Source: Ruminococcaceae bacterium OttesenSCG-928-A16 (GTDB taxonomy: Bacteria; Bacillota; Clostridia; Oscillospirales; Ruminococcaceae). From it: DNA of 64,000 nucleotides. The notes below the pieces were generated by a model. The model was not told the DNA's origin. It made no database searches and saw only the letters and a list, made by a program, of their open reading frames with translations. Position numbers and translations under genes: made by a program. Within the stretch, counting starts at the first letter, position 1, and the number at the start of each line of letters is the position of its first letter. Positions 6,557 through 62,455 of the stretch are shown here, in pieces. The stretch covers positions 62,001 to 126,000 of the forward strand of contig JAJDJP010000001.1 of NCBI GenBank assembly GCA_030267215.1, written 5' to 3'.

Positions 6557-8947
6557 CTATCCCATTACTACCCGCACTTCGCATTCGGTGCCACCGGCCA
6601 GCACGGGTATTTCTTGCATAAGTTGGCCGTTTACAAAAATTTGTTTAATGCCACGGCTTACGTGGTTGGGGTTTTCTACCTTGATATTGTACAGTGCCCC
6701 ACGGAAACGGCGAGAGAGGCTGAACCCATCCCAATCGGCCGGAATGCAGGGGTCCACCGTGAGAGAATCGAACTCGGGCTTAATACCCAGCATAAAGCGG
6801 GTGGCGGCGTAGTAGCTCCAGCCGCCGGTGCCCGTCATAAACGGGTGGTGTGCTTCGCCAAATTTGGGGTGATCCTTGCCGGTGATAAACTGGCAGTAGC
6901 TGTAAGGCTCGCACTTGCGGGTTTCAATTTTATCGTTTTGGTAGTAGGGGCAAAGGGCGTTGTAATACTCCATGGCGCGCTCGCCACGGCCCAGCTTGCA
7001 CTCGGCCGCCCAGGCCCAGGGGTTGGGGTGGCTAAAAATAGCGCCGTTTTCTTTTAAACCGGGGTATACACGGGTTACAAACCCAATGTCATCATCGGGC
7101 ACGGTGTAGGCCGGGGCGTTTAGCATAAGCCCCCAAGGGGTAGAAAGATATTCACGCACCGAATCCATGGCTTTAAGGCCGTGCTGCTGGCTGGCAGCGC
7201 CCGAAATAACCGCCCAGGTGTTGCTTTCCATGTGCACCTTGCCCTCGGCATCGGCGTGGGTGCCAATGGGGCGGCCGGTTTTGGTAAAGCCACGCAGGTA
7301 CCACTCGCCATCCCACAGGTTGCTTTCGCACACCTGCATTACGGTTTGGCGCATGTGGGTGTAGGTTTCCACATCTTCGGTGCGGCCCAGGCGCTGTGCC
7401 AGGGCAATAAAATGGTCTAGCGCCCAAACGTGCAAAAAGCTAACCATAGCACTTTCGCCGCCGCCCAGGTTCAGGCAGTCGTTCCAATCGGCCCGCAGGC
7501 CAAGGCACACGCCATGAATACCCGTCATGCGGGCGGAGAAGTTAAGAATGGTTTTCATGTGGTCGTACACAGTGTCTACGCCGGCATCGGCATAGGGTAC
7601 GGGCAAATCGGCAAAGGCAAAGTCGCCGGTTTCGCGTATAAACTCTACAATAGAGGGGATAAGCCACAGGGCGTCATCGCTGCAGGCATCGTCGATGCCG
7701 TGAATCATGTTGTTGGCATCGAAGGTGGGCACCACGGTGGGGCTTTTAAAGCTTTGTTGCTCGCCGCTTGCTTCAAACCATTCTGGTTGAAACAGGTGTA
7801 AACCGTACCCCTCGCTGGTAAGGCCGTTTAGCAGCTGCAAAATGCGCATGCGGCAGCGGGCTGGGTTACTGTGCTGCACCGTCATCGAGTCCTGCGCGGT
7901 GTCACGGTAGCCAAGGCCGGTGCGCCCGCCAACCTCTATAAAGCTGGCAAACCGGCTAAACTTAACGTTAATTTCAGATTGGTACAGCGTCCAGATATTG
8001 ATCATGGTGTTCATGCCTTGGTTGGGGGTGTTTATTTGCAAGGCTTTGCACTTTTCGTCCCAGTAGCTGGCAAGGGCAGCAAGGGCGTCGTCGCGCTGGG
8101 CAGGCTGGGCATATTTTTCGCGCATTTGGCGGCCATCTTCACGGTTGCCCTCGCCCAGCATAAAGCAAAGGCGCTGGGTGGTGCCGGCCTCTAGCACAAA
8201 CACTTTGTGCAGGGCAGCACACTGGTTGCCACCTTTTTCAAAGCTGCCACTTAGGCGGCCACGCTCTACCCCAATGGGGTTGTCTTCGGTGCGGTAGGGG
8301 CCAATAAATTCTTCGCGTACCGCGTCAAAGCTATCGGGCATAAAGCTGGCGGCAAAATATTGGTAGCCGTTTTCTTCATAGTGCAGGTCCTGCTCAATAA
8401 TGCCGTCGGCATAATCGGCCCCGGCGGCGTACAGGCTCATTTGGAAGTTGCGGTTGTCCATATCAATAAGATGGAACGAGAGCTCGGCGTACGAAAACAC
8501 ACTTATTTTGCGGGGCTTGCCGCTGCGGTTTTCTATTTTAACATCCCACAATTCCACGGCATCTCCACGTGGAATGAAGAGGGTTTGCTCGGCATAAATG
8601 CCGTTGTATTCGCAGCTATAAGTAGTGTACGAAAGGCCGTGACGGCAAACGTATTTGGCTTCATCCAGCGGTTTTGCCACCGGCTGCCAGCTAATGCTCC
8701 AGTATTCGCCGGTTTCATCATCGCGCAGGTATACATAGTGGCCGGGGCGGTCCATTGGTACGCTGTTGGCCCTAAAGCGGGTAATGCGGTGATATTCGGC
8801 GTTTTTATAAAACAGGTAACCACCGGCGGTATGGTTTACTACCCCCACCATATCATCAGTTCCAAGGTAATTGGTCCAGCTCATGGGCACGTCAATTTTA
8901 TCAATTACATATTCGCGGCGTGCGTCATCAAAATAACCATACTGCAT
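6557..8947 (-). CDS. GH94 disaccharide phosphorylase (cellobiose or N,N'-diacetylchitobiose phosphorylase type)
   Basis: 796 aa; MQYGYFDDARREYVIDKIDVPMSWTNYLGT N-terminus; SDDALWLI catalytic region; ADWNDCLNLGGGESAMVSF. Confidence 0.88.
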   Translation of the reverse strand: MQYGYFDDARREYVIDKIDVPMSWTNYLGTDDMVGVVNHTAGGYLFYKNAEYHRITRFRANSVPMDRPGHYVYLRDDETGEYWSISWQPVAKPLDEAKYVCRHGLSYTTYSCEYNGIYAEQTLFIPRGDAVELWDVKIENRSGKPRKISVFSYAELSFHLIDMDNRNFQMSLYAAGADYADGIIEQDLHYEENGYQYFAASFMPDSFDAVREEFIGPYRTEDNPIGVERGRLSGSFEKGGNQCAALHKVFVLEAGTTQRLCFMLGEGNREDGRQMREKYAQPAQRDDALAALASYWDEKCKALQINTPNQGMNTMINIWTLYQSEINVKFSRFASFIEVGGRTGLGYRDTAQDSMTVQHSNPARCRMRILQLLNGLTSEGYGLHLFQPEWFEASGEQQSFKSPTVVPTFDANNMIHGIDDACSDDALWLIPSIVEFIRETGDFAFADLPVPYADAGVDTVYDHMKTILNFSARMTGIHGVCLGLRADWNDCLNLGGGESAMVSFLHVWALDHFIALAQRLGRTEDVETYTHMRQTVMQVCESNLWDGEWYLRGFTKTGRPIGTHADAEGKVHMESNTWAVISGAASQQHGLKAMDSVREYLSTPWGLMLNAPAYTVPDDDIGFVTRVYPGLKENGAIFSHPNPWAWAAECKLGRGERAMEYYNALCPYYQNDKIETRKCEPYSYCQFITGKDHPKFGEAHHPFMTGTGGWSYYAATRFMLGIKPEFDSLTVDPCIPADWDGFSLSRRFRGALYNIKVENPNHVSRGIKQIFVNGQLMQEIPVLAGGTECEVRVVMG

Positions 8948-46496: not shown

Positions 46497-46767
46497 CCCG
46501 GTAAATGGGCCAGTTTGTTTTAATAATTTGGGATAGTTACCTTTTATTACTTTTTTTAAACTTATTATTGAGTTTGTAGCGATGGTGCGGTACAATTATA
46601 AAATAGTATTACTGCTGGTAAAAAGATTGTAATGCCATTGCTTTTTTAAACAGAAGGGTTTAAAAAGCAGCAATGGCTTATGGGTACAAAAGGCTTGCTG
46701 GGGAGGCCGTAAAACAGCCTGGTGTAGCTTTGCAACAAAGCAACACAATAAAAAGGGGAATTATAAA

Positions 46768-49700
46768 ATGAAGCAAAACAAAAAGAGCCTAAAACGTGCC
46801 TTGGTACTGCTATTGGTAGCGGTGCTATCTCTCTCTCTTTTGCCATCGGCGTTTGCGGCAGGCGAAGCCATGAACGAGAGCAGGCAGGCGGCTAGCTTGG
46901 TGGCAAGCCTGCCCGCGCAAGAAACTGGCGAGGAGCCTAGCGGCCAGCAGCCGCCGGCCAGCGAAAGCTTGCCAGTGCAACAAGTGGATATTTTTGAGCC
47001 ACGGCACCAGCCCCTGGGTATGGAGCCCCAGCTGGAAGATGCCTTTGCCGTGCAGCAAACGGCTGCCCTTGATGAAGTGCCCGAGGGTATGCTTGCCCCA
47101 TTGGCAGCGGCCGAGCCAACCTTCCAGTGGGAGATACCGGATAATGGCGGCTATGCCAACGACCTTACCACCGCAGAATTACAAACCGATAACTGGACGG
47201 GCATACTGTTTTTTAGCTACCCGGTGCCCGAAGGCGGGGACGATGTTGCACCCGGGGCCTTGGTGGCTACCATTGATATGGGCGCTGCCTTTACCGGCGA
47301 GTTAAGCCTGCAATCAGGCGGATTGTTCGAGATTTCTTCCCTTGGCAGTGGCAAATGGCAGCTTACCAACACAGCGGCCTTAACCACTGGCTTTAATGCC
47401 GATGTTGGCATTAAAGCTACGCTGGATGGAAAAATACGCGCCCTGGCTACCGACACAAACGGTATTATTTCGTTTGCCGATATTAAGATGAATTATACCG
47501 ACCCGCTAACCGAAGCCCCGCAAAGCTTTGCCCTAACCCTAAATGTGGTTACCAAAAAAGATAACTTTACAATTAGCAAAACAGCCCAGCCAATCGATCT
47601 TACGGCTAATATTGGCCTTGCCAATGCCGCCGATTTGCTAACCTATAATTTTGTAGATTATCGCATTGTTGTGGGGCAAAACCTATATACCCGCGAAATA
47701 TATGAGTATGTTTTGTCCGATGCTGTTCCCGCTATTGGGGCAGGGCAGGGGGCTATTGTTTCGGTTGCGCGTGGCACCACCTTTTTGTTTAGCGAGGTGA
47801 ATGGAACCACAGCCGAGGGTACCGCAGCGTTTGGTGCCGGCAACAACCTTGCCACCGGCAACTTGGTTATTAATGCACCCAGTGGTAGCGGCCTTGGCAA
47901 CAGCGTTACCTATTCGGTGGTGGTAAAATACCCCAAAGCCACCAACAGTGTTACCAACATAGCCAATATCAATGGCCGGTACGACGGTAACGCCAGTAGC
48001 GAGCTGCTGGGTACCTCGCAGGTAACCATAGATACTGGCGACGGCCGTTTTGCGGTAGATGGCAGCAAGGCTTACAGCATTAGCAAAGCATTGCGCAGTA
48101 ACTTCCAAACCTACATGGGGCGCAGCGGTGTGGTGCCCAGCAACAAGTTTGGGCAAAAACAGGGCGAAATAAACGAGCAGATTGTTGCCGAAATTGTGGC
48201 CCGCAAAACCTTACCCGGAGACCCCGCAAACGGAACCAATGCTGCGGTAGACATGATTATATACGACGACGTGCTTACCTTTAACAACGGTGCTTCTACC
48301 ACAGGCCGCCTGTTAACCGGGGCCGAGCTGTATATCGAAAATATTAACGTTACCGCGTTTGGCGGTGCTACCGGCGTGCAAAGTGCCGATGTATATTTAA
48401 AGCAAAATGCGGCCGACGCTTGGCCTGCTGCACCTACCTATACCCTAACTGTACCGGCCGATAGTACCAATATTAGCCAAGCTGTGCCAGCGGATAGCCG
48501 GTATGGCTATGCCAAAATTGTGTATAAAAATGTGCACGATACCGGCAGTGCTACCATTAAGCTAACCTATTCGGCTTCAGAGGCTTTTACCGATGAAGAG
48601 CGCACCGCCGCCGAAAGCTTAATTGCAAACTATGCGGCGCTTTCGGTAATGGTGGCCGGCACAAACACCAATGCGCTGCCAGCAGTGCCCGATGAACAAG
48701 CCTACCCCAACACCACCATTAGCAAAGGGGTAACCAGGTATCTGGGTGTGCTAGAGGTGTTGGATTCTTTGCAGCACAAGCTGGACAATGGGGCAACACC
48801 GGTGCTGCGTGCCCTTGGTGCGCTGCATTTTGCCACCTACCTTTCGTTCGATCATTACTACCTGTACCCCAACACCTATGCAACCTGGAGCCCTGAACTG
48901 GAGCGCTACGATTTTAATGCCCATATTGGTATGTTTATTAGCGGCGCGCAGGGCTCGCCCGTTAAAAATGTAACCTATGTAACCTACCTGCCCACCAACA
49001 TTTTTTTGAACCAAGACCAGATTTATGAGGGAAAAAGCATTGGCAGCTTTGATGCAAACGGCGCTGCCATTATTGAAAAATTAACCACCGAAACAGTGAT
49101 GGTGAACGGCGAGCCACGCCAAAAGGTTACGGTAAAATTGAAAGAGCTTGCTGGCAGTGGCTTTCAGGAGAGAAATGCCCGCATAACTTTAAGCTTTTAC
49201 ACCTACGATATCGAGCGGTATCAGCCGGGCACCTCGGTTCCATTTCCTAACAACTACACAGTAATTGGAGATTATAGCCACCTTTCACGTGGGTATATAT
49301 CGGGCAGCACTGCAGAATACCGTATTATGCAGGACAATGGCAAAAGTACCCCCGATGGTGCCAAGATGACCAACCAAGACAACGACACGGTGGATTGGGT
49401 TTATTTAACCGATTACCAAAGTATTGCCCTGCCGGCGGTGGCAAACATCACTTACTCTGGCGTAACCAAAGGCATACTAGAAGAAGATGGCAGCGTGGTG
49501 CGCAGCGCAGTGCGCAACGTTGGCAAAACATGGCAGTACCAGCTAAAGGTGGTTTCTAACAAGGGCAAGCTGCAAAATGTTGTGGTGTACGATGTTTTGC
49601 CCGAGATAGGCGATGCTTCGATGGGAACAAATACCGCCCGTAATAGCCAATATCAGGCGCAATTGCTGGATATTGATATTACCAATGCGGTAGAAAATGG

Positions 49701-50979
49701 GCATACACCGGTGGTGTACTACAGCACCGTGGCCCAGCCCGGCACAAACCTTACCAGCGGCGAGTGGAGCACCACCCCGCCCGAAAATGTAAGCGAGGTA
49801 CGCGCCCTGGCTTTCGATTTTGGGGAGAGCCTGTTTAACGGCAACAACCCAACCAACACCCCCGACGAAGCCAATATTATAATTACGGTACGCAGCGATG
49901 CCGACCCCTTGCTGGACCAAAAAATTTCATACAACAATGTTTACTCTACCTACGATATTATAAGAACCGGCGTAAACCAGGGTAACCCGGTGGCCGCCCC
50001 CAAACGCGACACCCTGCCTGTAGATGTGAAGCTGTTGGCCTCGAACGTGCTAATTGGCTCTACCTTGTTTGCCGATGTTGATGCCGATGGCATTATGGGC
50101 ACAGAAGAAGTGGGTATAGAAGGCCGGAAGGTATTTTTATACCAACTTAACCCCGAAACTGGTGAAAAAGATTTGGTAGACCAAGTGCTTACCGATGGCA
50201 ACGGAAACTACCTGTTTGCCGCCCCAAGCGATGGAACTTTTTATGTAGGTTTTGAAAAAACCGACAAAGAAAAATTTTCTCCCCGGCCAGAGACTCTACC
50301 GGTGGCCGCCGAGGGTGAGGAAGAGGTTGTATTTAGCAAAATAGACCCCGCAACCATAGAGGGTAACCTTGGGCTAACCAGCCCCGTTGTGGTAGATGTT
50401 AACGACTTTTTAGACCCCGGCCGCAAAATTTTGGATATGGATGCTGGCGTAAGCATTTGGCACAAGGTAATTTACGATGCCAATGGCGGTACTGGCGAGC
50501 AAATCGATAAGCAATCTCCCTATTTAGATGGCAGCACCGTAACCATACTGGGGCAGGGCGGCATAACCCGCCCGGGCTATACCTTTAAAGGATGGAACCT
50601 GGCCCCCGATGGCAGTGGAACCATGTACCAAGCAGGGGATACCTTTGTAATTACCGAGGACACCACCCTGTACGCTATTTGGGTGCCGGAAGAAACGCCC
50701 CCGGTTAGCAGCAACCCAACGGTTTCAGAAGACCCCGCCAGCGAGCCTATTAGCGGAGTGCCCTCTACCAGTACCCCTGTTAGTGAAGTGCCGCCTAGCA
50801 GCACGCTTACCAGCCAAACACCTTCGGCCAGCGCACCGGCTGGTGGTGGCAACGGGCAAAGTGGCACCGCCGCAACCGGCGATGCCACCCCGCTGGTTTG
50901 GGTGCTTGCATTGTTTGCTTTAGCGGGTTGCGCAATTGTGGTTATTGTTGTGCGCCGCAAAAATGCCAGCAATAAATAA
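46768..50979 (+). CDS. Large surface protein (1403 aa) with SdrD/Cna-B-like and InlB-like repeat domains and C-terminal membrane anchor
   Basis: Signal peptide; IGSTLFADVDADGIMGTEEVGIEGRKVFLYQL; VIYDANGGTGEQ...RPGYTFKGWN; C-terminal TAATGD + TM + RRKNASNK. Confidence 0.88.
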   Translation: MKQNKKSLKRALVLLLVAVLSLSLLPSAFAAGEAMNESRQAASLVASLPAQETGEEPSGQQPPASESLPVQQVDIFEPRHQPLGMEPQLEDAFAVQQTAALDEVPEGMLAPLAAAEPTFQWEIPDNGGYANDLTTAELQTDNWTGILFFSYPVPEGGDDVAPGALVATIDMGAAFTGELSLQSGGLFEISSLGSGKWQLTNTAALTTGFNADVGIKATLDGKIRALATDTNGIISFADIKMNYTDPLTEAPQSFALTLNVVTKKDNFTISKTAQPIDLTANIGLANAADLLTYNFVDYRIVVGQNLYTREIYEYVLSDAVPAIGAGQGAIVSVARGTTFLFSEVNGTTAEGTAAFGAGNNLATGNLVINAPSGSGLGNSVTYSVVVKYPKATNSVTNIANINGRYDGNASSELLGTSQVTIDTGDGRFAVDGSKAYSISKALRSNFQTYMGRSGVVPSNKFGQKQGEINEQIVAEIVARKTLPGDPANGTNAAVDMIIYDDVLTFNNGASTTGRLLTGAELYIENINVTAFGGATGVQSADVYLKQNAADAWPAAPTYTLTVPADSTNISQAVPADSRYGYAKIVYKNVHDTGSATIKLTYSASEAFTDEERTAAESLIANYAALSVMVAGTNTNALPAVPDEQAYPNTTISKGVTRYLGVLEVLDSLQHKLDNGATPVLRALGALHFATYLSFDHYYLYPNTYATWSPELERYDFNAHIGMFISGAQGSPVKNVTYVTYLPTNIFLNQDQIYEGKSIGSFDANGAAIIEKLTTETVMVNGEPRQKVTVKLKELAGSGFQERNARITLSFYTYDIERYQPGTSVPFPNNYTVIGDYSHLSRGYISGSTAEYRIMQDNGKSTPDGAKMTNQDNDTVDWVYLTDYQSIALPAVANITYSGVTKGILEEDGSVVRSAVRNVGKTWQYQLKVVSNKGKLQNVVVYDVLPEIGDASMGTNTARNSQYQAQLLDIDITNAVENGHTPVVYYSTVAQPGTNLTSGEWSTTPPENVSEVRALAFDFGESLFNGNNPTNTPDEANIIITVRSDADPLLDQKISYNNVYSTYDIIRTGVNQGNPVAAPKRDTLPVDVKLLASNVLIGSTLFADVDADGIMGTEEVGIEGRKVFLYQLNPETGEKDLVDQVLTDGNGNYLFAAPSDGTFYVGFEKTDKEKFSPRPETLPVAAEGEEEVVFSKIDPATIEGNLGLTSPVVVDVNDFLDPGRKILDMDAGVSIWHKVIYDANGGTGEQIDKQSPYLDGSTVTILGQGGITRPGYTFKGWNLAPDGSGTMYQAGDTFVITEDTTLYAIWVPEETPPVSSNPTVSEDPASEPISGVPSTSTPVSEVPPSSTLTSQTPSASAPAGGGNGQSGTAATGDATPLVWVLALFALAGCAIVVIVVRRKNASNK

Positions 50980-52430: not shown

Positions 52431-52769
52431 GTATAACCACCCTTCTCTTAATAAAAAGGAGCTTATTTTACGATAAATAGCTACTTTATTATACATTACC
52501 CACCTGCCAAAAACAACAAAAAGGGGCAACCCTTTAACAACAAATCAGTTTGCAATAACGCCAGCTTTAGCGGCAAAACAACACCATAAGGCTGTACCTT
52601 ATGGCAGAACAATAGCCAGTTTTGCTGACTTTTTGCCCTAAAAAAGGTATAGTAAAAATAAAATCACAAAAAAGTGGCGGATTTTTTGGGCTTGCTGTGC
52701 CTTATATAATAGAGGCCTGAAAACTCTTTTCCGTTTACGCAAATATAAAGTGATTCTGGGGGGAGTCTC

Positions 52770-54401
52770 ATGAAAGAGGAACAGGCAAAGTTATTGGTGC
52801 AAAAGGCCATGCAGGGAGACAACCAAGCTTTTGTAGCCCTGTGCGAAGCCAAAGGCAGCGAGATTTTGTATGTCTGCATAAAAATAATGCAAAACCAACA
52901 GGACGGAGAAGATGCCGCCCAGGAGGTTTTTATTCAGATGCAAAAATATATTTTGGGGTTGCAAAGTGCCGATGCATTTAATGTGTGGCTAAACCGCATT
53001 ATATTTCATGCTTGCCTAAACCTAAAACGCAAAACAAAGCGGGCCAAGGGGGAGCTACCATTGGAACACTATGTTGGTTTGTTGGAAGAAAATCGCGCAG
53101 AGTTTTTGCCCGAAAGTTATCTGGAAGATAAACAAAAGCAACAGCTTATTATGGAAAGTATAAACCGTCTTTCGCCAAAATACCGCAAGGTGGTTTTGCT
53201 GTACTATTTCGAGGGATTGAACCAGCAGGAAATTGCGCAAGCAATGGAAATTAGCGAAAATGCAGTGAGCCATGTTTTGCGCCGTGCCCGCAATATTATA
53301 AAAAAAGAGGTAGGTGCCCCCCAGCAAGATTTATTAGGCTTTACAGCGGGGCTTCCGGTAATTTCCAGGCTGCTTATGGATGAAGCAACACAACTGGCGC
53401 CCAACGCTACGGTGCAAAAAATAATTTTTGCCAGCGGCATAAAAAATGCCACTATTGGTACGGTGTCAACCGGTGGTGGTGCAGCGGCTGCAAGCCACCT
53501 TTTTGCACGGGTAGCCGGCATGTTGTTTTTGGGTGCCGGTGTACTTGTGGGAGGTACAATGCTTGTTACCACCCAAACAAAGCCCAACACCCCTGCTGCC
53601 AGTGTTGCAAGTATCCCCCAATACTTGCAGCCAGGCAGTAACAAGGGTTTGGATATAGAAGATGCTACCGAAAGCCAAGCGCCTGGCGGTAATTGGCAAC
53701 CGGGCAAAGCAGTGTCTTCAGGGGTCTCTTCGTTGCCACCTGCCGGGGCACCGGCAGGTGGCAGAGGGGACGCCACAAAGCAAAAAGATGGTTTTGTGGT
53801 TTCTTTTGGCGGCGGGGTTGTTTTTGTAAATGTTGATGGCCAAACCGTACAAAATAAAGGGCACTACACCGAAGGCTGTATGGTGCAATTGGTAGATGCA
53901 AACCAAACCGTGCTGGCACAAACAACAACAAATAGCCAAGGGAATTATATATTTGAAAACCTGGAACTGGACGCAGCAGGAGAATATACCCTGCAACTAA
54001 TTTTGCCCCAAGGCAAAGGCCTTGTGTTTGCCCCACAAATGGCGGGTGGCCAGCAGCAGGTGCTGTTACAACAAAATGCCACTGTTACCCCAAAGCCGTT
54101 TGCCATTACGGCAGGGGCGGGGCCAACCGTGGGCCTGCTATTATACAATGCGCAAAACCAGCGCAGCAATATTAACCCGGTTAGGGCCCAGGTTATAACA
54201 AAGGGCCCGGCACAAACCACTTATAGTTGGGAAATAGCCGACCGGAATGGACAGATTATTTTGCAAGGTGGCGAAGCGATAGGTGAAACGTTAGCCCAAA
54301 TGCAGGCCAGCGGGTATAGGGGGCTGTTCACCCTTACCGTAGCTGTAACCGATGACGCAGGAAACAGGGCGGGGGAATGGCAAACAATTTATATTAGGTA
54401 A
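52770..54401 (+). CDS. ECF-type sigma factor fused to TM helix and extracytoplasmic SdrD/Cna-B-like domains
   Basis: N-terminal sigma region 2 (DGEDAAQEVFIQMQ) and region 4 (LSPKYRKVVLLYYFEGLNQQEIAQAMEISENAVSHVLRRAR); TM VAGMLFLGAGVLVGGTMLV; C-terminal TTTNSQGNYIFENLELDAAGEYTLQL. Confidence 0.9.
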   Translation: MKEEQAKLLVQKAMQGDNQAFVALCEAKGSEILYVCIKIMQNQQDGEDAAQEVFIQMQKYILGLQSADAFNVWLNRIIFHACLNLKRKTKRAKGELPLEHYVGLLEENRAEFLPESYLEDKQKQQLIMESINRLSPKYRKVVLLYYFEGLNQQEIAQAMEISENAVSHVLRRARNIIKKEVGAPQQDLLGFTAGLPVISRLLMDEATQLAPNATVQKIIFASGIKNATIGTVSTGGGAAAASHLFARVAGMLFLGAGVLVGGTMLVTTQTKPNTPAASVASIPQYLQPGSNKGLDIEDATESQAPGGNWQPGKAVSSGVSSLPPAGAPAGGRGDATKQKDGFVVSFGGGVVFVNVDGQTVQNKGHYTEGCMVQLVDANQTVLAQTTTNSQGNYIFENLELDAAGEYTLQLILPQGKGLVFAPQMAGGQQQVLLQQNATVTPKPFAITAGAGPTVGLLLYNAQNQRSNINPVRAQVITKGPAQTTYSWEIADRNGQIILQGGEAIGETLAQMQASGYRGLFTLTVAVTDDAGNRAGEWQTIYIR

Positions 54402-54447
54402 AAATGATGTGGGGATTTATACGCAATATTATGGGAGGCCAGAGAAA

Positions 54448-57400
54448 ATGAGAAAAAGTAAGCATTCTATTGCCCAAAAATGGAAAGCGATGCTGTGTAG
54501 CCTGCTTGTTGTGGGGCTTATTGCCACAGCCATGCCGTTTGCAGCGCGTGCCCAGGGTGAGGAACCGGCAGAAATTTTGGCAACGCAGCAAAATAGCACA
54601 GCCCCGGGCGATGATTTAGGGATTGAAAATGACGAATTGCCCGAAAACGAAGTGGAAGTTATTGAAGAAGATATTGCAGCAGGCGAGCAAACGGCCGACG
54701 ATGCTGAAATAGAGGAACTTTTGGCAGAAAACCAAGAAGCCGAAAAACCAGAAAAGGTTGAGGAACCTGAAGACGAGCCCGAAGACGAGCCGGCTATGGT
54801 GGACGAGGAAACCGAAGAGGAAGATGCCCCGGCAAAGGCCCAGGCCGATGTGATAGGGGAAACCGAAGCCTTTCAAATGGCTTCGGCTTTTGGGCTGCAG
54901 GCGTTAGCGATGGATTTTGCAACCCTGCAACAGATGATTGATGATGCACCAGCCGGCGAGCAAACGGTTATCACCATCGATAATGAAATAGTGGTAGAAG
55001 ATACGCTGCTGATATTGGGAAAAAATATTTTGCTAAATGGTACCGGTACGCTGCAGCTGGATCCCAGTATTTCTGATGGATTTTCGGTGGAAGAAAACGG
55101 TGCCCTTACGGTTACCGGCATCACGCTGCAAGGGCAGGAGTATTCGCCTTTTGGTATATACGTAGAAGGTACCTTTGAAATTGGAGCGGATGCCGTACTG
55201 CGGGAAACCACCACATATGTTAATGAAAATGCAATTTTAAACCTGAGTGGCGGTTTAATAACCGGTAATACAGATGTGTCGGTTATTAAAAACCATGGTA
55301 CATTTACCATGGCCTCTGGTAGTATAAACGATAATATAGTGGGCAATAAGCTGATAGAAAACAGCGGTGTTTTTACCATGGCCGGCGGTAGCATACAGGG
55401 CAATACAGTGGATGATGCGCTGATAGAAAATGATGGTGTATTTACTATGGAAGGCGGCAGTATTCACAATAACCATCTAACGTATGAATCTGACGATGCC
55501 AGTGTTATCTCTAACCAAAAAACATTTGTTATGCAAGGGGATGCTGTAATTTCTGGCAACGAAATGCGAGCAGTTACCAGCGAGGGCCTGGCCAGTAATA
55601 TCATGCAGGGAAAAGCGGCTATAACAAACAACACCAGCACGGGCAATGGCGGCGCTTTTTATTTATATTATGGTGCTAGCCTTACCATGCAGGGCAATGC
55701 CCGCATAGAGGGGAATAAAGCCGTAAGTGGCGGCGGTATTTATGCCGAACAAAAAAGTGGCACAACCAAAACCGCAGTTACCCTGGCAGAAAATGCCCTT
55801 GTAACGGGTAACCAGGCACAAAGTAGTGGTGGCGGCGTTTATATTGGCCAGTTTGGTTTTTTTACCATGCAGCAAAATGCTGCTATTACTGGCAATACCG
55901 CCTTTAGCAAGGACCCCGACAGCAGTGGCGATGAAGAAGAGGAAGAACCCCCCGAAGAGGACGAGCGTACCCTGGAAGAAATAGCCTACGACTATAAAAG
56001 CATTGCCTATGGTGGCGGCGGCCTGTTTATAATGGATGGCGGCAACCTTTTGGGCGGAGAAATTAGTGGCAATATTGCCCAAAATGGCAATGGCGGCGGT
56101 ATATATGCAGCCGTAAGCAACCAACAAACCGATGATTTTGTGATTGATGGTACCAATATTAATAACAACACCGCCACCTATGCCGGTGGTGGCATGTTCT
56201 CCGAGGGAAGCTCGATTTACAACTCAGATCGCCATCAATTGTTAAAATCTGTTATTTCGGGTAATATGGCAGAGTATGGTGGGGGGCTTTTTTCCTCCAG
56301 CTTGCATATAGAAGATGTAGAAGCGGCAAATGCCGACGAGTTTGTGCCAAGCGGCCAAATAGAAGCCCCACTGGTAACGATTAGCACAAACAAGGCGCTT
56401 GTAGCTGGCGGCGGTATTTATGTAGCCGGAGACATCGAGAACTCAGATCGCTCGGTGCTGGTGGAAGGCAATGAGGCAGCTTATGGTGGCGGCATTTATG
56501 TGCCCACCTATAGCGGGCGCTGGCATTCTGTGTGCCACCCAACCAACGCCGGGCACGACCAGCTAATAGAATTAGCTGAAAATGCAAATGCCCCAATGCC
56601 CTATATCCTTACCATAACCAACAACAAGGCAAGCCAAAGTGGCGGGGGTATCTATAATAATGGCGAAATAGGTATATCCCTTATACACGTGGAAGTGAGC
56701 AAAAACACTGCCGCTGATGGCGGCGGCATGTACCTTGCCGAAGCAGGAAAATGGGCATGGCAAGACGGCGGTGAGGATGAAGGCTACCCCTATAGCTGTA
56801 AGGCAGAGTTTACCGGCAACACCGCAACACAAAACGGTGGCGGCATATATTATGCCAGCCAAGAATGGAACATGTTTAACAGCTACTATAACCTGGTTAC
56901 CTACGAAAGCCAAGAGGGCAGTGAAGAAGATATAACGGCTTATTTAGAAAAACCGATGTCTATTTATGGCAACGTGGCACAGGGCGATGGTGGCGGCATG
57001 TACGTTGCAAGTGGCAGTGCGCTACTGCTAGGCGTAAATTTTGGCCAAAATAACGCACAGGGCAACGGTGGCGGCATGTATGTTGCAACCGGTGCCGAAG
57101 CGCTGATTCGTGCGCTGGGTAGCGAGGAAGATATTGTTGTTTTAGAAACACCGGAGCCCACTACTTTTACCGGCAATACAGCCCAGAACGGTGGTGCTAT
57201 TTACAACAGCGGTACCGTAAAATTGCACGGAGCGGTTATGGACAATAACACTGCAAGCCTGCTTGGCCAAGGTGCCTGCCATAACGGCGAACTGTTTGTT
57301 ATTTGCAGCGATGCAGAATTTGGCGCCGAGAGTGAAAACAGCATCTTTTTGTACCCAGATAAATTTTTAACCATCGAGCCGGACGGCCTGAGTGGAATTT

Positions 57401-58308
57401 ATTCTATTGAGGGCTTTTTACCAGGAGATGCGTATGAAGGCCGGGTAGTTGCCGTGCGTTCTTCCGGCAACAGCGCCGAAAGTGAAGTAGAGGCGTTTTC
57501 GTACCTGCCAAAAACCCACCCGGTAACCTTTGCCAGCCCCAATATGGTGGTGCTGGGCGAAGGAGCAACAGCAACCCTTACCTATGTAACCATTAATGGC
57601 GCGGCCCAAAGTAATGCGCCAGCAGATGAAAATGCACCGGAACCCCAAGCATATGTTATGGGTACCGAGGTTAGCATAACCAGCCATATACCGGTGTGTG
57701 TAGGGTGGGAGTTTACCGAATGGAATACCGATCCCGATGGAAATGGCGATGCATATAGTGGTGGGCACCTGCTTACTATTACGCAAGATACTATCCTGTA
57801 TGCACAATACATCCATACGCCTTATTGGGTAACCTTTAACTATATGGGGGCAGCGCCCTCAAGCTTGGAAAAATACTATTACAACGACCTGCTAAACCAG
57901 CCCAATGGCATAGAGTATGAAGGGTATACTTTTGGCGGCTGGCAAAAAGAGGATGGAAGCTTTTGGGATTTTGAAAAAGATACCATGCCAACAGAGGATA
58001 TTGAATTGTTTGCCTATTGGGTGGCAAACCCTGCTTCGTCAAGCAGCCAGGATGTATCCTCCAATGTACCACCTGTTTCCTCTTCTTCTCAACCAGAAGC
58101 GGTAAGCTCGTCTTTGCCGGTATCTTCTCAGGGCGAACAACCTGCCAGCACAAGCACGCCGCAGGGTAATAGTACAGTAGCAAACACGGCAGGCACGCCA
58201 CTAACAGGCGATGACTTTAGCATTGTACTGGCAATAAGCTTGCTGCTAATTGGGTTTGCAACCACCTGCGTAACCCTTATAATTTATAGAAGAAGAAGCA
58301 AACAGTAA
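54448..58308 (+). CDS. Large surface adhesin with beta-helix (GGGIY) repeats, InlB-like domain and C-terminal TPLTGD-TM anchor
   Basis: RBS GGGAGG; signal peptide; many SGGGIY/NGGGMY repeats; VTFNYMGAAPSSLEKYYYNDLLNQPNGIEYEGYTFGGWQ; TPLTGDDFSIVLAISLLLIGF...RRRSKQ. Confidence 0.9.
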   Translation: MRKSKHSIAQKWKAMLCSLLVVGLIATAMPFAARAQGEEPAEILATQQNSTAPGDDLGIENDELPENEVEVIEEDIAAGEQTADDAEIEELLAENQEAEKPEKVEEPEDEPEDEPAMVDEETEEEDAPAKAQADVIGETEAFQMASAFGLQALAMDFATLQQMIDDAPAGEQTVITIDNEIVVEDTLLILGKNILLNGTGTLQLDPSISDGFSVEENGALTVTGITLQGQEYSPFGIYVEGTFEIGADAVLRETTTYVNENAILNLSGGLITGNTDVSVIKNHGTFTMASGSINDNIVGNKLIENSGVFTMAGGSIQGNTVDDALIENDGVFTMEGGSIHNNHLTYESDDASVISNQKTFVMQGDAVISGNEMRAVTSEGLASNIMQGKAAITNNTSTGNGGAFYLYYGASLTMQGNARIEGNKAVSGGGIYAEQKSGTTKTAVTLAENALVTGNQAQSSGGGVYIGQFGFFTMQQNAAITGNTAFSKDPDSSGDEEEEEPPEEDERTLEEIAYDYKSIAYGGGGLFIMDGGNLLGGEISGNIAQNGNGGGIYAAVSNQQTDDFVIDGTNINNNTATYAGGGMFSEGSSIYNSDRHQLLKSVISGNMAEYGGGLFSSSLHIEDVEAANADEFVPSGQIEAPLVTISTNKALVAGGGIYVAGDIENSDRSVLVEGNEAAYGGGIYVPTYSGRWHSVCHPTNAGHDQLIELAENANAPMPYILTITNNKASQSGGGIYNNGEIGISLIHVEVSKNTAADGGGMYLAEAGKWAWQDGGEDEGYPYSCKAEFTGNTATQNGGGIYYASQEWNMFNSYYNLVTYESQEGSEEDITAYLEKPMSIYGNVAQGDGGGMYVASGSALLLGVNFGQNNAQGNGGGMYVATGAEALIRALGSEEDIVVLETPEPTTFTGNTAQNGGAIYNSGTVKLHGAVMDNNTASLLGQGACHNGELFVICSDAEFGAESENSIFLYPDKFLTIEPDGLSGIYSIEGFLPGDAYEGRVVAVRSSGNSAESEVEAFSYLPKTHPVTFASPNMVVLGEGATATLTYVTINGAAQSNAPADENAPEPQAYVMGTEVSITSHIPVCVGWEFTEWNTDPDGNGDAYSGGHLLTITQDTILYAQYIHTPYWVTFNYMGAAPSSLEKYYYNDLLNQPNGIEYEGYTFGGWQKEDGSFWDFEKDTMPTEDIELFAYWVANPASSSSQDVSSNVPPVSSSSQPEAVSSSLPVSSQGEQPASTSTPQGNSTVANTAGTPLTGDDFSIVLAISLLLIGFATTCVTLIIYRRRSKQ

Positions 58309-58396: not shown

Positions 58397-58677
58397 TACG
58401 ATGATACGATTGGAGATAGATAGCTTTTTCAATAAATTTAATTAAAATCAATGGTTTGCATGCGGTTGAAAGCCAATAGTTCCAACATTTTTGCAAAACG
58501 ATAACTTTTAAGTAGCGTGAACTTAAAATAACCACCCTTTTGTGTGGGGCAATTGTGTATTAAATCTGATATAATTTTTAAAAGACTATATTGCGGTACA
58601 ACACAAACCACCTTACAAAAGTACATTTTAAACGGTACAAGCTAAACACCATGCGGTGTGTAACAGAGGGTGACCTT

Positions 58678-60348
58678 ATGATGTTGCGAAACTGGAAGAA
58701 AGTGAAATGGCTTGCAGTGGCTTTTTTGGTGTTGCTGGCCGTCTCCATCTATCGGCAAATTTGCATACAGTTTTTTCCAAACGACATGGTGCGCCCGGTT
58801 ATTGTTTACTTTGTGTACCTGTTGTTGCTTTCGGGGTGGAGTGCCTCTATCCGTAACCGCATTACCCACGGCAGTATGCGAATGTTTTTGCTGGTAACCC
58901 AAATTTTAATGCTGCTGGGCATCACCATTCGGTTTTTGCACGATGCCATGGTGCCGCACTACGATTTTTTTATGCAGCACTATGCGCCCCTGATGCGTTC
59001 TAGCGGGTATTTGGTTGGTATGCCTATCTTTATTCTTCCCCTGTTTGGCTTGTACGCAGCTTTTTGCCTGGGCCGTTCAGAAGAATACCGTTTTAACAGG
59101 GGCTGGTATGCCTTGCTTATCCCGGCCGTAATACTTGTTTTTTTGCTGCAAACCAACGAATACCACCACCTTATTTTTGGTGCGTTTGAGGAAGATATTT
59201 TGTCTTACCGCCCAACCGTGGGCATGGTGGTTATTGTGCTGTGGGCGCTGGCCCTGTATTTGGCCCGCATGTTTGTTATTTACCGCAGAAGCCGGGAGGT
59301 AAAGGACTTTCCCCGCTTGCGCTTTGCACCCCTGCTTTTAATTGTTTCTATGCTGGCGCTGTGCATTTACTACTTTTCCATTTCGTTTGTTGTTAGTTTT
59401 GAGATAATAGAGTTTAATGTGCTTGTTTATTTTTGCGAGATTTTGATTTGGGAAAGCTGCATTTATATGGGAATGGTGCCGGTGAACACAAATTATGAAG
59501 AGGTGTTTGACCGCTCTACAGTGGCCATGCAACTGGTGGATAGCAATGGAATATCCCACATGAAAAGTACCAATGCGCCAGCGTTATCCAACGAAATATT
59601 TGTGCAGCTAAAAAAACAATCCCCCATCCTTACAAATGAGGGAAAAGAACTGCATTTGCACGCCATTAATGGCGGCTATGCCATTTGGCAAAACGATATG
59701 TCGCAAACGCTTGCGGTAATTGAAGAGCTGCGAAAGAGCGTGGAACGCTTAGAGTATGAGGGGGTTATCCTGCGCAATGAATTGCGGATTCAATCGGACA
59801 ATGCGACGGTGAAAGAGCAAAACCGCCTTTATAACCAATTAACAGAGGAAATACAAGGGCAGCTTACGCTGCTGCAAAATTTGCTAAACAAGCGGGAATG
59901 GACGGAGGACAAAACTACACTGTTTAAAAAGGTTTGCTTGGTTGCCACCTACATTAAAAGAAGGTGTAATTTGCGGCTTGTAGAGCAGGCCGAAGGTATA
60001 ATATCTAACGAAGAGCTAAAACTTTGCTACGATGAAATGAGTGCCTGCTTGCGGCAACTGGATATAGGGGCGGGTGCAGTTTGGCACAACGCGAACCCGC
60101 TTGCCCCCGAATTGGCAATTTTTTCGTTAGATTTATTTGAGCTTTTGCTGGAATACGATGACTTTAATTTGTATACCATCCATATTTCTTTCGAATCCGA
60201 GACCAAATTCATGTTATATATCCATTCCAAAAGCGATGCTTCTGCCCAAATTCCCACCGGCCAACTAAAAGCGCTTAACAAAGAAAATTATCTGGTAAAA
60301 TGGCAGCCAGTGGAAAAGGGTGCGCGGGTTGTGGTGCAAATGGTATAG
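58678..60348 (+). CDS. Histidine-kinase-like membrane protein with multi-TM N-terminus; apparently lacks catalytic motifs
   Basis: Multi-TM N-terminal half resembling the histidine kinase 7TM region; coiled-coil then C-terminal ATPase-like fold with no recognizable H-, N- or G-box. Confidence 0.7.
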   Translation: MMLRNWKKVKWLAVAFLVLLAVSIYRQICIQFFPNDMVRPVIVYFVYLLLLSGWSASIRNRITHGSMRMFLLVTQILMLLGITIRFLHDAMVPHYDFFMQHYAPLMRSSGYLVGMPIFILPLFGLYAAFCLGRSEEYRFNRGWYALLIPAVILVFLLQTNEYHHLIFGAFEEDILSYRPTVGMVVIVLWALALYLARMFVIYRRSREVKDFPRLRFAPLLLIVSMLALCIYYFSISFVVSFEIIEFNVLVYFCEILIWESCIYMGMVPVNTNYEEVFDRSTVAMQLVDSNGISHMKSTNAPALSNEIFVQLKKQSPILTNEGKELHLHAINGGYAIWQNDMSQTLAVIEELRKSVERLEYEGVILRNELRIQSDNATVKEQNRLYNQLTEEIQGQLTLLQNLLNKREWTEDKTTLFKKVCLVATYIKRRCNLRLVEQAEGIISNEELKLCYDEMSACLRQLDIGAGAVWHNANPLAPELAIFSLDLFELLLEYDDFNLYTIHISFESETKFMLYIHSKSDASAQIPTGQLKALNKENYLVKWQPVEKGARVVVQMV

Positions 60349-60500
60349 GGCATGCCTTGCTATAGCAATAAACTTCAAAGCTGGCCGGCTTTGTGTGTGC
60401 AATAGGTTTGCGTACGCACCCAAAAGGGTGGCGTTTACGCCGTTGCTAGTTGCTTTGTTTAACAATAAAAGCATTAAAAACAGGGAAGAGGTGATGGGTT

Positions 60501-61814
60501 TTGAATCTTTCTGCCAGCTTTGTTTGGGCGGGTGCGGTGCAATTGTTTTTACTGATATTTGCCGTGTATAGCCTTACCTTTTGGCAGATAAGCCGGAAAA
60601 TCTCCCCGACGGTAATCGACCTTTTTTTGCTGGGTGTGCAGGTGGCAAATCTGGTTGTTCTGCTGCAATATATGTCCGGCACCAGCCAACTTATTTTTTC
60701 CAGGAAAGAAAACTATGGGTTCCTTTTGGGTATTCAGGCCCTCATTGCCCTGCTTGTGCTTTTCCGCTTTTTCTTTTTAATTTTTAGGCGCCGCACCCAA
60801 CACCAAAAAGTGCTGTCGCCCACGTCGGTTCGCGAAGCGATTGATTACCTGCCCGGTGGTATTTGTTTTGCCGCTGTAAATGGCCGGCCAATTTTAACCA
60901 ACCATAAAATGAACGAATTGGTTTTTAGGCTTACCGGCCACACCATTATGAATGCCGAAACCACCTGGAAAGAACTCAATATCTTAAAAAATGCCAATGG
61001 ATATACCAAGCTGGAAAACCCTTGGCTGAACCAAGAGCATTTGGGGCAGGCTTCCGATGATTCTATTTATTTTTCTCATGCCGGCGGCAGTATTTGGCGG
61101 TTTCGTAAGGAAGAGTTGACCGAGCAAACGCCACACTACATTCAGCTGGATGTTATGGAGATAACCGAGCTGTACCATTACAGCAAAGAATTGTACGATA
61201 ACAACCGGCGGCTTGCACAGCAGTATGCACGCCAGCAAAATCTTCTTGCCAACATTGTAAAAATAAACAACGACAAAGAGATTTTGTCAATGAAGATGAG
61301 AATTCATGATGACCTGGGGCGCAGCATTATAACCACCAAACAGTATTTGAACGATCAAACACTTTCAGAGAACACCCCTTATTTAGCAGAAATTTGGAAA
61401 CACACCATTCGAGGCCTGGAGGATTTTTCACAGATGTCTCCCCAAGAGGATATTTCGCCCGAAATTGAGCTACGAAAAGCCGCCGAAATGATTGGTTGCC
61501 AAATTCATTTTGCGGGCCAGCGCCCGACGGGCCGCAAGGCGACACTTTTGCTGTATGCAACTGTGCGAGAGGCCCTAACCAATGCGGTAAGGCATGCTAA
61601 CGCAAACCAGCTGTATGTTACCCTTCGGCACAAAAACAATAGCTACCACGCTACCATTAAAGACAATGGAACCATGCCGGTGGCACAGGTGCAAGAGGGC
61701 AATGGGCTTGGTAACCTGCGAAGAAGGCTGGAGCAGGAAGGGGCCACCCTTTGGGTGCAGCATGGGCAGGGGGTTTCGTTGGTGGTAGAGCTTCCGGCAG
61801 ATGAGCTATTTTAG
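60501..61814 (+). CDS. Sensor histidine kinase (NarX/DesK-like, HisKA_3-type)
   Basis: MKMRIHDDLGRSIITTKQYL phospho-acceptor motif; VREALTNAVRHANANQLYV N-box; GNGLGNLRRRLEQEGATL G-box; TTG start. Confidence 0.88.
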   Translation: MNLSASFVWAGAVQLFLLIFAVYSLTFWQISRKISPTVIDLFLLGVQVANLVVLLQYMSGTSQLIFSRKENYGFLLGIQALIALLVLFRFFFLIFRRRTQHQKVLSPTSVREAIDYLPGGICFAAVNGRPILTNHKMNELVFRLTGHTIMNAETTWKELNILKNANGYTKLENPWLNQEHLGQASDDSIYFSHAGGSIWRFRKEELTEQTPHYIQLDVMEITELYHYSKELYDNNRRLAQQYARQQNLLANIVKINNDKEILSMKMRIHDDLGRSIITTKQYLNDQTLSENTPYLAEIWKHTIRGLEDFSQMSPQEDISPEIELRKAAEMIGCQIHFAGQRPTGRKATLLLYATVREALTNAVRHANANQLYVTLRHKNNSYHATIKDNGTMPVAQVQEGNGLGNLRRRLEQEGATLWVQHGQGVSLVVELPADELF

Positions 61815-61831
61815 AAGGAGGAAAAGAGCGA

Positions 61832-62455
61832 ATGGTGAATGTTCTACTGGTAGAGGATTCGAAAATAACCCGAGATATGGTGGAAAGATACATTAATATG
61901 TCGCAAAATTATGTGCTTACAACCACGCTGGAAAATGCGGCCAATGCAGAAATTGTGTGCATGAAAGGCAAAATAGACCTTGTTTTAATGGACGTTTGCA
62001 CAGCAGACGATGAATCGGGGTTGGAAGCTGCTGCCAAAATAAAAAAACATTATCCAACCATCAAGGTTATTGCCATGACTTCGATGCCGGAACACTCTTT
62101 TATACAAAAAGCAAAGGAGGCCGGTTGCGAAAGTTTTTGGTATAAAGAATATGGCAATATGGAACTGATTGATGTGATGAACCGCACCATGCAGGGGGAA
62201 AGTGTTTACCCGGATAAAACGCCTGCCATTGCAATAGGCAATGTAAATAGTGGCGAAATAACCGAGCAGGAAATGATTGTGTTGCGCCAACTTTGCCTTG
62301 GCTATAAATACGAGGAAATTGCTGAAAACCTCTCGATAACCCTTAACACGGTAAAATTTCATGCCAAAAACCTGCTGGCAAAAACCGGGTACCGCAGCAC
62401 ACTGCAACTGGTGGTAGATGTGGTAAGTAAGCGGCTGGTGCTGCCCAAGTTTTAA
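61832..62455 (+). CDS. NarL/LuxR-type response regulator
   Basis: VNVLLVEDSKITRDMVERYI receiver, DLVLMDVCTADD, C-terminal LSITLNTVKFHAKNLLAKTGYRS HTH. Confidence 0.93.
   Translation: MVNVLLVEDSKITRDMVERYINMSQNYVLTTTLENAANAEIVCMKGKIDLVLMDVCTADDESGLEAAAKIKKHYPTIKVIAMTSMPEHSFIQKAKEAGCESFWYKEYGNMELIDVMNRTMQGESVYPDKTPAIAIGNVNSGEITEQEMIVLRQLCLGYKYEEIAENLSITLNTVKFHAKNLLAKTGYRSTLQLVVDVVSKRLVLPKF

Follow-up and report, generated by a model that had tools for sequence, protein, structure and literature searches.

Predicted membrane-tethered ECF sigma factors paired with surface-protein genes in an uncultured Ruminococcaceae-type bacterium

Introduction

Membrane-tethered ECF sigma factors have so far been known mainly as single cases, such as IutY, or as predictions, such as the groups ECF48, ECF52, and ECF53. 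IutY of Pseudomonas putida is a sigma/anti-sigma hybrid of group ECF243, the sigma domain of which is freed by Prc and RseP (PMC5411451, PMC7593790). The ECF48, ECF52, and ECF53 fusions have been proposed to be freed in the same way as IutY, and in ECF52 the extension consists of a proline-rich region plus a domain (PMC8999054).

Here, we describe a gene for a predicted tethered ECF sigma factor located in a 64,000-nt stretch of DNA (the window) from Ruminococcaceae bacterium OttesenSCG-928-A16, together with its paralogs in the same genome. The genome of this uncultured Ruminococcaceae-type bacterium was represented by an assembly of 2.17 Mb in 95 contigs (78% complete). No description of this fusion family was found in the open-access literature searched.

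Results

The sigma fusion encoded in the window

The features of the locus are listed in Table 1. The 543-aa protein, whose gene ends with TAA at 54399-54401, matched the Pfam families Sigma70_r4_2 (9e-15), Sigma70_r2 (3e-6), and SdrD_B, and scored 76.2 bits against TIGR02937, above the cut-off of 42.9. It contains sigma2 and sigma4 only, without sigma1 or sigma3, as is characteristic of ECF (group IV sigma70) factors, and its best structural neighbours were SigW, AlgU, and SigE. In the AlphaFold2 model, sigma2 and sigma4 were well modelled, with helices in both and block pLDDT mostly 70-97; the C-terminal third was predicted, with medium to low confidence, to form two beta domains, and the linker and transmembrane (TM) helix were poorly modelled, with low confidence. 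A profile built from 13 fusions also matched the B domains of SdrD and UafA in the PDB. With a predicted C-terminal TM helix and an SdrD_B/Ig ectodomain on the sigma polypeptide, the protein has the plan of a tethered ECF fusion.

With neither a zf-HC2 match (Pfam, window fusion) nor an HxxxCxxC zinc anti-sigma motif (0 of 14 fusions), a zinc anti-sigma segment in the linker, of the kind present in ECF52 and ECF53, was rejected. Pfam likewise gave no FecR match for the window fusion and no ligand-binding family for its ectodomain, and no separate anti-sigma gene adjoins the window copy.

Table 1. Coordinates of the features discussed, numbered from the first nucleotide of the window.
Feature	Position	Strand	Basis or details
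SigmaA-type promoter of the 1403-aa gene	46568-46596	+	TTGAGT-N17-TACAAT
1403-aa SdrD_B/Flg_new surface protein, probably outside the regulon of the window sigma	46768-50979	+	
Putative ECF-type autoregulatory promoter of the window sigma	52674-52710	+	-35-like GTGGCGGA (52674-52681), -10-like GTGCCTTATATAAT (52697-52710)
CTGGGGGG ribosome-binding element, characteristic of the sigma family in the genome	52756-52763	+	
Membrane-tethered ECF sigma factor gene, 543 aa	52770-54401	+	ORF, Pfam, structure model
Sigma2-sigma4 domains, aa 1-181, nearest solved structure SigW	52770-53312	+	Pfam, structure comparison
Cytoplasmic linker, aa 182-243, low-confidence helices, no known anti-sigma domain matched	53313-53498	+	
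Predicted single TM helix, aa 244-262	53499-53555	+	Hydropathy
Pro/Ser/Ala-rich extracellular stalk, aa 263-340	53556-53789	+	
SdrD B-like domain, aa 348-430	53811-54059	+	Pfam 3e-9, structure comparison
C-terminal Ig-like domain, aa 456-535	54135-54374	+	Weak Big_13 / Big_3_2 matches
GGGAGG ribosome-binding site of the partner surface gene	54433-54438	+	
Partner surface protein, 1286 aa	54448-58308	+	Signal peptide, PMP-type repeats, Flg_new/InlB-type repeats; C-terminal PLTGD-like anchor, TM helix, and basic tail

The partner gene and its neighbourhood

As the sequence-only reading had stated, the ATG of the partner gene (54448) lies on the same strand, 46 nt past the sigma stop (54401), and is preceded by a GGGAGG ribosome-binding site; no terminator-like site was listed between the two genes. 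The window sigma gene is probably co-transcribed with the surface gene. A longer start in the ORF listing, 54352, overlaps the sigma gene and was considered less likely, because the ribosome-binding site and the signal peptide belong to 54448. The same reading had called the product a beta-helix adhesin. Its Chlam_PMP repeats (Pfam, 5.6e-15), accompanied by Flg_new, fit a beta-helix, whereas "adhesin" is best taken as a presumed role. A PDB search with the 1286-aa protein gave no matches. Just 3' of this gene, at 58591-62455, are genes for a membrane protein (weak 7TM-type match), a histidine kinase, and a NarL-type response regulator; a terminator-like hairpin lies in between, and these genes are probably unrelated.

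The upstream 1403-aa surface protein had been thought to resemble the sigma ectodomain in its SdrD-like domain, and a search for an ECF-type motif common to its gene and the sigma gene had been proposed as a check. The resemblance held at the level of the Pfam family (SdrD_B, 3.5e-9 in the 1403-aa protein) but not in direct BLASTP, where similarity was insignificant (E = 0.18 for the SdrD part), and direct homology was rejected. The shared motif was discarded as well: the 1403-aa gene has a sigmaA-type promoter of its own, and no ECF-like box was seen upstream of 46768.

Twelve fusions and their partners

In total, 12 tethered sigma fusions were found in the genome, most of one plan; L025 and L029b have ectodomains of other kinds, and that of L031 is short. 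Two of the 12 were left out of the pairing count because the contig edge lies about 20 nt past the stop. For all ten fusions with usable downstream sequence, the nearest same-strand gene downstream codes for an exported surface protein, at a gap of 32-431 nt. This sigma-to-surface-gene order, recurring in 10 of 10 testable paralogs, exceeds chance. Surface genes lacking a sigma neighbour also exist (46768, C9, and C50), and the adjacency is therefore not forced by the abundance of such genes. Only a few clades were resolved in the phylogeny of the sigma paralogs.

The partners fall into several types, with the SdrD-B/Ig ectodomain of the fusions conserved. Their lengths are 1286, 2439, ~2050 (with a frameshift in the assembly), 1834, 546, and 2226 aa; the partners of L026, L028, L029a, and L031 are truncated by contig ends. 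A pilus-like unit begins with L023 and comprises a SpaA-domain adhesin, a GramPos_pilinD1 backbone with an LPXTG anchor, and sortases.

Individual copies showed peculiarities. In L023 (C89), an in-frame TAA at 7700-7705 lies within the Pro-rich stalk and may reflect a pseudogene, readthrough, or an assembly error. An apparent frameshift in L022 (C49, 6482-6489) splits the partner gene near the N-terminus (212 + 1835 aa), through either phase variation or an assembly error. L024 (C67) and L027 (C65) have identical sigma C-terminal residues, TATDIAGNQTTAELIFYIV, encoded by the last ~60 nt of the genes; together with the contig breaks shortly past the stop, this suggests a repeated or recombining sigma-surface junction. 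Many of the surface proteins at L021, L022, L025, C57, C9, and C39, partners and orphans alike, have three or four TM helices at the C-terminus, in most cases with an acidic tail (EEEEEVEE, EEEEQDEEA) rather than a sortase motif; such a membrane anchor is unusual.

Promoters and translation signals

In most sigma copies, an ECF-like -10 element (GTGTCTTATATTAT / GCGTCTATATTA) precedes the start codon by 39-80 nt; in L022, L023, L025, and L029b it is weak or missing, and L026 and L028 carry other boxes. The element was aligned by eye, with an admitted selection bias, and a subsequent leave-one-out procedure recovered 8 of 12 sites, with p-values that are optimistic because of the choice by eye. 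An unsupervised EM motif search of the upstream regions performed no better than on shuffles. Outside the training set, the G004 ortholog L034 has GTGTCTTATTAATG at -51 (p = 0.01), and G020, from a more distant genus, has ACGTCTTTATTATA (p = 0.015).

The window copy, L021, and L027 have a common -35-like GGCGR and represent one promoter type. The genome-wide promoter scan was confined to pattern searches, in which GGCGR-N15-16-GYGYCYWWW had six matches: three at these copies, one upstream of the surface gene at C11, and two within coding sequence. The reversed pattern also gave six matches, so the count alone is insignificant and only the match locations matter. The most telling promoter evidence comes from C11 (L029a). 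Here, a terminator-like hairpin lies between the sigma and surface genes, and AACACGAT-N15-GTGTC is found before the sigma gene and, past the terminator, before the surface gene; the spacers are equal in length but have diverged in sequence. No other perfect sites occur in the 2.17 Mb, with about 0.07 expected by chance as estimated from base counts. The surface gene beside the sigma gene in G004 has GCAAT-N15-GTGTCTTATC, and the sigma gene itself ACAAT-N15-GTGTCTTATT, the same promoter type. Because the partner genes at C11 and in G004 carry the promoter type of the sigma gene, the sigma factor probably drives both itself and its partner.

A second box of group-I type, GGCGA-N16-GTGTCTATT (L029 17763-17793, C11:29763-29792), precedes the surface gene of this group-III paralog ~100 nt upstream of the cognate-type site and hints at cross-control by another paralog. 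The unpaired 1403-aa and C9 surface genes have sigmaA-type promoters. A sigmaA-like site (CTGACT-N17-TATAGT, 52625-52653) is also present upstream of the sigma gene in the window, which may therefore be transcribed at a basal level without the ECF promoter.

The heptamer CTGGGGG occurs 6-10 nt before the start of eight sigma-fusion genes (window 52756; L021 8227; L022 8819; L026 4194; L027 1654; L028 7613; L029 15954; L031 7718) and of the L023 surface gene (8487), which suggests a family-specific ribosome-binding or regulatory element. Among its other copies in 261 kb of the genome, only three are near a possible start (11-18 nt), and these are apparently inside coding sequence.

Distribution in relatives

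Among 398 genomes of the family, full-length relatives of the fusion were detected in the same genus only (G001, G003, and G004); the other matches had the sigma, linker, and TM parts in common but differed in their ectodomains. Named congeners are Ruminococcaceae bacterium OttesenSCG-928-D13, Ruminococcaceae bacterium OttesenSCG-928-I18, and Oscillospiraceae bacterium AS06rmzACSIP_408. In these three, a sigma gene comes after a surface gene on the same strand, the reverse of the arrangement in the window genome; conservation thus extends to the linkage with surface genes but not to their precise order. No surface gene follows L034 or L040, and the one downstream in G001 stands behind a terminator and has its own sigmaA-like promoter. 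Beyond the genus, exported proteins are encoded by 20 of the 36 genes after such fusions, compared with 31% of background ORFs (p = 0.002, based on a crude hydropathy test for signal peptides).

Discussion

Our main reading, to which we assign a probability of about 0.72, is that the fusion and its partner constitute one copy of a duplicated module, in which a tethered ECF sigma factor heads a surface-protein transcription unit and drives it via its own ECF promoter. The earlier proposal that the sigma factor controls surface-protein transcription is thereby retained for its own partner, given the 10 of 10 pairing, the ECF-like sigma promoters, and the promoter copies at two loci, and given up for the 1403-aa gene. 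Partner transcription is supported by the promoter duplication at those two loci; in the window, it is deduced from the 46-nt gap. The N-terminal sigma2-sigma4 part would be cytoplasmic, tethered by one TM helix, with the stalk and the SdrD-B/Ig-like domain facing outward. In the tethered state, the sigma factor would be held inactive. On the model of IutY and RsgI, a signal received by the ectodomain would lead to cleavage, with site-1/site-2 proteolysis releasing the sigma domain, which would then bind RNA polymerase and activate transcription at its own promoter (positive autoregulation), and hence of the partner gene. As the promoter boxes of the paralogs have diverged, each sigma factor probably serves mainly its own surface gene, and each surface protein probably comes with a private outward-facing on-switch.

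The chances are about even that what the ectodomain detects is an environmental cue (a glycan from host or plant, mucin, or envelope stress) and not the state of the partner, the surface protein being the output; the sequence-only reading had suggested that the sigma factor may sense cell-surface or adhesin assembly. There are precedents in the substrate-binding ectodomains of RsgI (PMC6056542) and the carbohydrate-binding domain of SCO4117/ECF52 (PMC8999054). Moreover, the conserved SdrD-B/Ig ectodomain is found with very diverse partners, and a common partner-binding site is therefore not obvious. The ectodomain, however, matched no ligand-binding family, and SdrD-B and Ig-like domains are commonly spacers rather than ligand binders. 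A sigma factor acting on a wider shared surface-gene regulon, beyond its own partner, appears rather doubtful: the GGCGA-N16-GTGTCTATT box of another paralog group at C11:29763 and the single promoter type of the window copy, L021, and L027 would fit such a regulon, but AACACGAT-N15-GTGTC is confined to a single sigma/surface pair and unpaired surface genes have sigmaA-type promoters.

Activity of the sigma factor in its tethered state, or its release by a means other than site-2 proteolysis (signal peptidase, rhomboid, or regulated turnover), is unlikely. No Peptidase_M50 (site-2 protease) and one weak rhomboid match were found in the window genome (G000) assembly; yet a full-length M50 protease is present in 4 of 4 congeners and the assembly is 78% complete, so the gene is probably just missing from G000, and its absence as a real feature was rejected. 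In addition, the characterised tethered ECF factor IutY requires Prc and RseP (PMC5411451). Mere hitch-hiking, with pairs duplicated together and sigma genes having no control over the surface genes, is very unlikely. The partners of L022, L028, and L031 and the orphan C57 are mutually homologous, so that pairs were partly co-duplicated, and some sigma copies look damaged (the stop in L023, the short L031). The partners of the window copy, L023, and L029b, however, are mutually unrelated over most of their length, yet paired, and promoter boxes are conserved despite diverged spacers.

The strictest version of this module, one sigma for one surface protein, is probably an overstatement: it would have a dozen tethered sigma factors that look outward, amplify themselves, and are insulated from one another, each turning on a single giant surface protein or pilus, with the ectodomain reporting its own partner or the ligand thereof. 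If true, it would imply a surface coat that is modular, can be switched piece by piece, and may be bistable. The set of fusions also offers a simple model of how adhesins or pili could be turned on one by one by outside signals in a gut-type bacterium, without a separate anti-sigma factor. The 12 fusions, nearly all beside their own surface gene and with diverged boxes, are a natural set for studying the divergence of sigma-promoter specificity that follows duplication, and provide ready candidates for orthogonal sense-and-express parts.

Compared with known systems, the fusion resembles IutY in combining an ECF sigma factor, one TM helix, and an extracytoplasmic domain in one polypeptide, with an adjoining surface receptor gene. 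IutY, however, is Gram-negative, present in a single copy, equipped with a CSS anti-sigma ectodomain, and works with a TonB-type receptor, whereas the window system is of Gram-positive type, with 12 paralogs, an SdrD-B/Ig ectodomain in place of an IutY-type FecR periplasmic domain with TonB receptor, and giant surface-protein partners. The actinobacterial ECF48, ECF52 (SCO4117), and ECF53 share the C-terminal TM helix with an extracytoplasmic extension (PMC8999054), but have a zinc-finger anti-sigma-like segment that the fusions in the window genome lack, and the review describing them reports no pairing with surface proteins (PMC8999054). Among solved sigma folds, that of Bacillus subtilis SigW (5wuq) is the nearest in both sequence and structure, but SigW is a soluble sigma factor with a separate zinc anti-sigma, RsiW, and a stress regulon. 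The SigI/RsgI systems of Clostridium thermocellum and P. cellulosolvens also comprise many autoregulated sigma paralogs per genome with outward sensor domains, and their promoters have diverged in the -35 "region of specificity" (PMC6056542), as the -35 boxes have here along with paralog expansion. There, the sigma and the tethered anti-sigma are separate proteins, cellulosome genes are regulated, and SigI is not a canonical ECF factor, whereas the window sigma matches ECF families and has no adjoining separate anti-sigma gene. By analogy, the system would appear to work like the IutY/ECF52 fusions combined with a SigI-style paralog expansion.
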